Source of the DNA: a bacterium
GTDB lineage: Bacteria; Cyanobacteriota; Vampirovibrionia; Gastranaerophilales; Gastranaerophilaceae
Reading direction: 5' to 3'
Length of the DNA: 60,498 bases
NCBI GenBank assembly: GCA_017941035.1
Contig: JAGAXG010000011.1
Span: 1-60,498 of the forward strand
Numbering within the stretch: position 1 is the stretch's first letter; every line of letters starts with the position of its first letter. The translations under genes were made by a program, and so were the position numbers. Shown one piece after another: positions 3 through 50,454 of the stretch. A model generated the notes under the pieces. It searched no databases and had not been told where the DNA came from. It saw only the letters and a list, made by a program, of their open reading frames with translations.

Positions 3-1177
3 ATGCTAAAACGCAGTCGCAGAGCTAATTTCGGGGGGGGGGGCTTTTAGCTAATCTCCTTGACAAAAAGAAGAATGCTTTTACCTTAGCTGAAACATTA
101 ATCGCGTTAGGCGTAATCGGAATCATCGCAGCGTTGACGATACCATCTTTGCTAACGACAATCCGCGATAAAGTAACGGAAAACCAAAAAGCGGTATTTG
201 AGCGAAAATTAGGAAAAGGAACAGATTTATTAAATATAGATAACGGAATCGGACCTTATTATAATGATACGGAATCATTTGTAAAGAGATTATCTGAACA
301 TTTGAAGATAGTCACAATTTGCGGAAAAGATAATTTAAAAGATTGCTTACCATATGAAACAATCCAGCAAGATGGAGCAGAGCCATTTAAGGTAAAAGAT
401 TTAGAAACGGCAGCATTTACCGGGATAGATAAAACAAAATACTTGGATGCAGCGGGATTTGTATTAGCAGACGGAACACCAATGATCTTAACATACATGA
501 ATAAGGATAATTGTCCAATAAGTGATCCTGATGCAGTGGAGTATAAAGGACAAAAAAAAGAAGCTCGTTCAACAAATACCAGATGTATCGCGGGATTTTA
601 TGATTTGAACGGTACCAAAGGTCCTAATAAATTCAATAAAGACATAGTACCATTTGGCGTAACCGGCTTAGCCGAAGTTGGTATAAAACTCGGAGATTCA
701 GGTATAACTTTATTAAGTGAACCACATGTACCTACAACAGTATTAAAGACCGGCGATATATGTACAAATAATAATGGAACTTATAAAATAAAATCTGACT
801 ACAAGACAAAATATAATATAGAGAATTGTTGTACAGTTAGTGATTGTATCAGCAAAGGAGATTATTGGGCGAGTGCGATGGTCGAATGTAAAGATATGGG
901 CGGGCACTTAGCAACAGAAAAAGACCTTGCAAAAATCGCAACCTACTTATATGATGCCCCAAGCCAAATAGGAGATACAGCCAGATATGATGGCACTTTA
1001 AACACCTCCAAACTAGGCACAACTTTTGCCGGTTTAGGCTCGTCCTGGGACATCTTGTGGTCTAGTTCAGAGAGCAGTGCAAGCATCGCATACTACCGCT
1101 ACTTCTACAGTTCGTTCACGGGCAGGTACAACGACTACCGCTTCATCTCGAGCTACAGGGCGGTTTGCGTGAAGTGA
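3..1177 (+). CDS. Prepilin-like surface protein, G11 tract in leader, frame OFF; C-terminal DGR-like variable region
   Basis: The pilin frame contains a prepilin peptidase site and hydrophobic helix (KKNA^FTLAETLIALGVIG, Glu at +5; bases 65-130), so the protein should be processed and assembled by, or anchored like, type IV pseudopilins. The only ATG before this motif (base 3) is in another frame: it reads MLKRSRRANFGGGGF and stops at 48-50, just after an 11-G run (33-43). Nine or twelve Gs would join ATG and pilin frames; no ATG, GTG or TTG occurs in the pilin frame between the G tract and the cleavage site. The middle is Cys-containing and pilin-like. The last third (about 858-1177) resembles C-type-lectin/FGE-fold domains (G-G-H-L-A-T-E, W-S-S-S-E, Y-R-A-V-C-V), with a GC-rich tail. 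An in-frame body of about 370 residues looks intact. Upstream promoter and RBS lie outside the window. Confidence 0.75.
33..43 (+). repeat. Poly-G tract (G11) in prepilin leader
   Basis: Eleven consecutive Gs in an AT-rich genome, between the start codon and the pilin body. Slipped-strand change to 9 or 12 Gs would restore a continuous reading frame. The equivalent tract at 50089-50100 is interrupted by an A. Confidence 0.85.
1063..1174 (+). other. Candidate DGR variable region (VR)
   Basis: The final codons are dominated by NNC and AGY/TAC/TTC/ATC/GAC types (for example TAC TAC CGC TAC TTC TAC), the pattern left when AAC/AAT codons of a template repeat are mutagenised at adenines. Bases 1083-1174 contain 50 G or C of 92, against roughly one third in the neighbouring coding DNA. 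The segment ends with the conserved Y-R-A-V-C motif at the protein C terminus, where VRs of C-type-lectin-fold DGR targets sit. No reverse transcriptase or template repeat was found in this window. Confidence 0.6.
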
Positions 1178-1194
1178 TTAATCATTTTAACTCG

Positions 1195-1226
1195 AAAGTC
1201 GGAATTTATTCCGACTTTTGTTTTTT
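1195..1226 (+). terminator. Rho-independent terminator after prepilin gene
   Basis: Ten-base stem (AAAGTCGGAA / TTCCGACTTT) with a 4-nt loop, followed by a T-rich run. Confidence 0.85.
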
Positions 1227-50056: not shown

Positions 50057-50454
50057 AATATACTAAAACGCAGTTGCAGAGCCAATTTTGGGGGGAGGGG
50101 GCATTTTTAGCTAATCTCCTTAGTAAAAAGAAAAAAGCATTTACCTTAGCTGAAACATTGATTGCTCTTGTCATAATTGGTGTCGTATCAGCGCTGACAC
50201 TGCCAACTTTACTAACGAAAATAAATGATACAGTAACCAAAAACAAAATAGCAGTCTTTGAACGTAAACTATCTAAAGGAACAGATTTATTAAATATAGA
50301 ATACGGCATTGGACCATATTATAACGGAGCAAATCCGAGTTATGTAATGGTGAGCTAGCAGGGAGATGGGATTATCAACTGAATTCTACAGGGCACGCAA
50401 TAACTACCGCAACTACGAGAGGTAATTCGACATTCCGAACTTTGTGTCTAAATT
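50044..50454 (+). pseudogene. Decayed copy of the prepilin gene with G tract
   Basis: Bases 50062-50340 repeat the start of the 3-1177 gene, including ACTAAAACGCAGT, a G-rich tract (G6-A-G5, 50089-50100), the leader and helix (AFTLAETLIALVIIGVV) and 'FERKLSKGTDLLNIEYGIG'. The copy of the start codon is ATA. An open frame of 104 codons from 50044 ends at 50358. Beyond the break, frame 3 keeps the C-terminal remnant 'AITTATTRGNSTFRTLCLN' (stop at 50452-50454), whose F-R-T-L-C-L ends like Y-R-A-V-C-V of the full copy. The middle (about 700 bp) is deleted. It is therefore a pseudogene. Confidence 0.75.

Follow-up and report, generated by a model that had tools for sequence, protein, structure and literature searches.

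Cyanobacterial DGR cassettes with remote C-type-lectin targets have been described previously (Vallota-Eastman et al. 2020, PMC7517822). The locus reported here resembles them in that genome-dispersed paralogues carry variable regions (VRs) near the 3′ ends of lectin-fold genes and are tied to a DGR template, but here prepilins preceded by a poly-G leader are targeted, and no reverse transcriptase (RT) was found in the genome concerned; the terms 'pilin' and 'type IV' are absent from the text of PMC7517822. An earlier mention of DGR targets includes putative pilin structures carrying DUF1566 domains (PMC6642488). DGR-diversified tip pilins are further reported from the type V pili of Bacteroides (Macadangdang et al., cited in PMC12632263) and have in common with our case a pilus-associated protein of a gut bacterium under targeted hypermutation, although theirs are type V lipoprotein pilins and those described here are type IV prepilins. 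Poly-G tracts are associated with phase-variable surface proteins such as HmbR of Neisseria (PMC3786947), where, as here, expression would be switched by a homopolymeric G tract within the reading frame; the present case differs in that the tract belongs to the leader of a multigene prepilin family with DGR-type variable C-termini, and its switching is unobserved. Among the titles and abstracts of the open literature, we found none describing DGR-diversified type IV prepilins and none combining a DGR with poly-G phase variation (subscription papers were outside the search).

The window, i.e. the whole stretch of 60,498 nucleotides analysed, is contig C2 of a 1.80-Mb draft genome (hereafter G000) in 48 contigs, estimated to be 98.4% complete. 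Its beginning is organised as follows:

3..61, + strand: 5′ leader with an ATG at 3, the peptide MLKRSRRANF and then a poly-G tract; conserved in prepilin copies
33..43, + strand: tract of 11 G in the leader (sequence reading)
62..1177, + strand: prepilin coding region, the first gene of the window, with a type IV prepilin N-terminus (KKKNAFTLAETLIAL)
671..1174, + strand: C-type-lectin-like C-terminal domain, residues ~204–371 (structure model, VIA-align matches)
1049..1158, + strand: DGR variable region in which hypervariable codons, mostly NNC, interrupt a fixed scaffold (codon alignment, NNC count, codon-position conservation, template-A columns)
1157..1177, + strand: conserved 3′ end of the VR (AGGGCGGTTTGCGTGAAGTGA), common to other copies (codon alignment)
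1195..1218, + strand: inverted repeat AAAGTCGGAA-TTTA-TTCCGACTTT, then T-rich sequence; probably an intrinsic terminator, on sequence reading only

The N-terminus of the gene scored above the cut-offs of both Pfam N_methyl (PF07963; 21.7 bits vs 21.2) and TIGR02532 (17.8 bits vs 16.3), which satisfies the criterion of a type IV prepilin cleavage/methylation motif. The product is predicted to be a pilus-type surface protein, its assembly into a pilus fibre being inferred only. As the contig begins at the leader, the ribosome-binding site of this prepilin is cut off. An era-like GTPase gene (1244–2137, named from its sequence) is located 66 bases after the prepilin gene.

The initial annotation had placed a DGR-like VR at 1030–1177, at the C-terminus of the prepilin, on the grounds of base composition, codon endings and terminal residues. 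The VR is real and spans 1049–1177, the variable part proper being narrower (approx. 1049–1158); it reaches the stop codon and thus occupies the 3′-terminal part of the coding sequence, as is required of the VR of a DGR target. The GC fraction of 50/92 given for 1083–1174 proved exact on recounting and compares with 37.5% for 62–1080 and 31.7% for the whole window. The gene end is indeed rich in NNC codons, with 23 of the last 42 codons ending in C vs 56 of the 329 before them, and it terminates in YRAVCVK, in keeping with the Y-R-A-V-C-V ending reported. The richest 41-codon stretch within the VR holds 24 NNC codons; elsewhere, in window ORFs of at least 150 amino acids, the maximum is 13.

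Searches of G000 with the window 3′ end revealed 14 strong matches including itself (E < 1e-13), and the whole prepilin protein gave 71 matches. At least 11 core copies share, in a codon alignment, a common fixed scaffold interrupted by mostly NNC codons that encode many residues, so that the VR pattern is demonstrated within G000 itself. Codon-position conservation is inverted: in these 11 copies, the mean pairwise identity at positions 1, 2 and 3 is 0.83, 0.85 and 0.64 upstream of the VR, and 0.69, 0.71 and 0.84 inside it. That third positions should be the most conserved is expected neither from drift nor from ordinary positive selection, but it is expected if the segment is replaced by copies of a template altered mainly at A. 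Compared with a template inferred for the genome, seven of the 11 copies have only 2–3 non-A differences (over 70–78 sites), a further copy has 4, and the remaining three 8–12 (L012, L002 and L021 are among the VRs in this range). It should be noted that this template was derived from the same VRs, which lowers the count. Older copies (L015, L018, L053 and L054) have lost most of the scaffold codons. Such a spread is consistent with some copies having seen recent DGR activity and others being in decay.

The inferred template, in which the variable codons were set to AAC, was searched at the DNA level against 46 genomes of the genus and matched non-coding sequence in two of them, G024 (L065), where the template repeat (TR) reads ENSANNAYNRNFNSSNSNRNNNNRNNSSFRAVCVGD, and G020 (L066), which has a near-identical form. 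A template deduced from the VRs thus retrieved true TRs in congeners, and in both genomes the TR is followed by an Avd gene; that of G024 scores 55.9 bits with PF22296 (above the cut-off of 40) and 62.7 with NF033474 (below the cut-off of 80). Altogether, Avd was present in G024, G020, G005 and G007. In G005, a prepilin VR, Avd, TR and RT occur together at one locus (L070). A complete cassette, understood as RT, TR, VR and Avd, is therefore found in G005, and also in G024 across two contigs, C30 and C18, which are joined by a 22-nt overlap. The order in G024 is SPOR-like gene, RT, prepilin, TR, Avd and ABC-type binding-protein gene (names assigned by eye). We considered whether the RT and TR of G024 might lie at unlinked sites, but dropped this option in view of the overlap and of the flanking genes being neighbours in G000. 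In G020, an overlap between the RT contig and the TR contig was sought and not found. The G007 assembly holds a TR and Avd with a prepilin VR nearby (L358, G007:C101:26000–32386), and no RT was found in it. The RT of G024 is an RVT_1 by Pfam, and the RTs of G020, G024, G025 and G005 possess LPIGNLTSQ and a YVDD motif; these we take to be of DGR type. Visual inspection of their motifs led us to leave aside the other RTs of the genus. Of 191 genomes sampled from the family, 28 contain RTs similar to that of G024 (E up to 1e-20), and the 4–5 weakest of these matches may represent other kinds of RT. A search of contigs with the VR scaffold pattern gave matches that mostly look like chance; the useful ones among those listed come from rumen MAG contigs RUG13924 and possibly RUG12020. 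A scan of viral contigs gave 11 matches.

Adenine-specific change between TR and VR was observed directly in G024 and G005. In G024, comparison of the TR with five VRs placed 93 of 102 substitutions at a template A, with change rates of 42% at A sites vs 2.1% at C, 0.6% at G and 2.9% at T. No template being found in G000, its VRs were compared column by column with the template of G024, i.e. of another species: three or more bases were seen in 29 of 40 columns where that template has A vs 12 of 100 others (Fisher p=6e-12). Some scaffold adenines (e.g. in ACG and AGT) are nearly invariant, and selection or context is therefore needed in addition to adenine mutagenesis.

The suggestion that the VR belongs to a C-type-lectin fold was supported by a model of the C-terminal domain, in which residues ~220–371 reach a block-mean pLDDT of 84–97, whereas confidence is poor before 210. 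The best VIA-align matches were the C-terminal domains of Bd2740 (Z 9.6) and of Legionella Lcl (Z 8.2), followed mostly by C-type lectin and formylglycine-generating-enzyme (FGE-type) domains. Since the best Foldseek E-value was only 0.022, the assignment rests on the consistency of the match list. As far as a predicted structure allows, the criterion that a DGR variable protein holds its VR in a C-type-lectin-type (or Ig-like) scaffold is fulfilled.

We are confident that the lectin-like C-terminal domain of the prepilin ends in a DGR VR, produced by an RT that miscopies the adenines of a template. The non-coding TR would hold AAC-type codons wherever variation is intended; the error-prone DGR RT, helped by Avd, would copy the TR and misread its adenines, and the mutated cDNA would replace the 3′ end of prepilin genes, one template potentially serving many dispersed genes of this kind in the genus. 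We infer that a system of this kind, using a template of G000 itself, produced the VRs of that genome, and that it has either been lost recently or falls in a gap of the assembly. The VR is, in our reading, DGR-made, while ongoing DGR activity in this strain is unproven. Counting against a DGR explanation are the missing RT, Avd and TR, the state of the two sites that hold cassette genes in relatives, the nearly constant scaffold adenines and the 8–12 non-A differences of several VRs.

The initial annotation had recorded no RT, Avd or template in the window, and our renewed search found none there either. It had also called for a search of the full genome, which we could carry out only in a draft: queries with PF00078 and the G024 RT gave no RT match in the G000 assembly, Avd had no match in it, and DNA queries with VRs, the inferred TR and TRs revealed no non-coding template in it. 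None of the three components of a complete cassette (RT, TR, Avd) is thus satisfied in this draft of 98.4% completeness and 48 contigs. Of the refuting condition set by the initial annotation, the half that concerns RT and template is fulfilled, though for a draft and not for a complete genome. Avd is not a component of every DGR. One match of the VR and inferred-TR queries (C39:68465–68605) lies inside a broken prepilin copy, and C47:35348–35621, considered as a possible template, contains stops and was rejected, as it reads as a decayed prepilin end.

The VRs may accordingly be relics of a DGR since lost from the lineage, with prepilin copies that now only drift and recombine; we regard this as a serious possibility, falling slightly short of an even chance. 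Besides the lack of RT, Avd and TR in the assembly, it is favoured by the state of the cassette sites. The genes flanking the G024 cassette abut in G000 (C19:2597–5781), an occupied vs an empty site, and therefore no cassette exists at the G024-type position. A phosphomannomutase-like gene precedes the RT of G020; in G000, the corresponding gene is followed by a prepilin-type promoter-like stretch instead, and then by the contig end, with no RT visible. The divergent VRs L012, L002 and L021 and the older copies without scaffold codons point the same way. Against the loss stand the seven of 11 core VRs with only 2–3 non-A differences, a level of the order of that in the RT-bearing G024 (~1.8%), albeit with the lowering effect of the inferred template, and the example of the G007 assembly, which also lacks an RT and yet has TR and Avd. 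Furthermore, 27 of 96 contig ends in G000 have a prepilin match within 800 bases, in 21 cases reaching within 10 bases of the end, so that at least 21 ends fall inside prepilin genes (the contigs with such ends are C3, C5, C7, C8, C12–C15, C19, C21, C26, C28, C30, C31, C33, C38, C40 and C41), and the smallest contig is 2.57 kb with nothing shorter in the assembly; a cassette situated between prepilins could therefore be missing. Whatever the case, loss and assembly gap cannot be told apart for the RT, TR and Avd of G000. DGR targets are nevertheless recognisable, and their template predictable, even in a draft genome without RT and TR.

The promoter-like stretch (TTGCGA...TATAAT...GGAATTAACGGAATAAA) is found repeatedly ahead of prepilin leaders and was seen at the ends of contigs C36 (L330) and C19 (L057) of G000. 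At the C36 end (L330), the sequence also folds back as its own reverse complement, apparently through faulty assembly.

A second potential source of variation, which the initial annotation did not mention, is the poly-G tract of the leader. The prepilin of the window is in frame with the ATG at 3 only at 9, 12 or 15 G, and with 11 G as assembled this copy is therefore out of frame; no in-frame ATG, GTG or TTG occurs between 29 and the first listed start (134) ahead of the prepilin motif. The window copy thus meets the criterion for a homopolymer phase-variable gene, namely that tract length sets the frame. There are 16 tracts of at least 9 G in G000, a genome of ~32% GC. In the cases examined, the tract is preceded by a shared leader, ATGCTAAAACGCAG.CGCAGAGCCAATTTC, which varies slightly, and tract lengths differ among prepilin copies (10–13). 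In all 13 testable tracts some length yields a stop-free frame into the prepilin; as assembled, two are in the prepilin frame and 11 are not. G020 and G024 have similar G tracts in their prepilin leaders, and in G005 a like leader is followed by 8 G. We conclude that these tracts are probably phase-variable, the switching itself being inferred and not observed. Draft assemblies can miscount homopolymers, and several contigs end at or near a tract, but we consider it unlikely that the tracts are assembly artefacts or fixed features without phase variation, given their number in a GC-poor genome, the length differences between copies, the existence of a frame-opening length in every testable case and their presence in prepilin leaders of G020, G024 and G005.

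An explanation that dispenses with a retroelement, in which paralogous lectin-type prepilins vary through ordinary positive selection and recombination, could invoke the large multicopy family and the frequent variability of lectin loops, but we hold it to be highly improbable, as it leaves unexplained the third positions more conserved than the first and second, the restriction to NNC and the variable columns that match the template adenines of another species.

For DGR-diversified prepilins, the lectin-like domain would, by inference, be displayed on a pilus-like fibre and bind variable ligands, and the leader tract would add a random on/off choice among the prepilin copies. If both were active, two variant-making routes, targeted adenine mutagenesis and poly-G phase variation, would act on one multigene prepilin family. 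That they amount to a combinatorial display, in which one template rewrites the lectin tips of at least a dozen dispersed prepilins while poly-G slippage randomly selects the copies expressed, giving each cell its own set of tips, is proposed only tentatively, at slightly less than even odds.

The window contains, in addition, a decayed and internally shortened prepilin copy at approx. 50060–50395 (+ strand), consisting of a leader with an interrupted G tract, a prepilin N-terminus, a stop and what looks like the remains of a VR (AACTACCGCAACTACGAGAGG).
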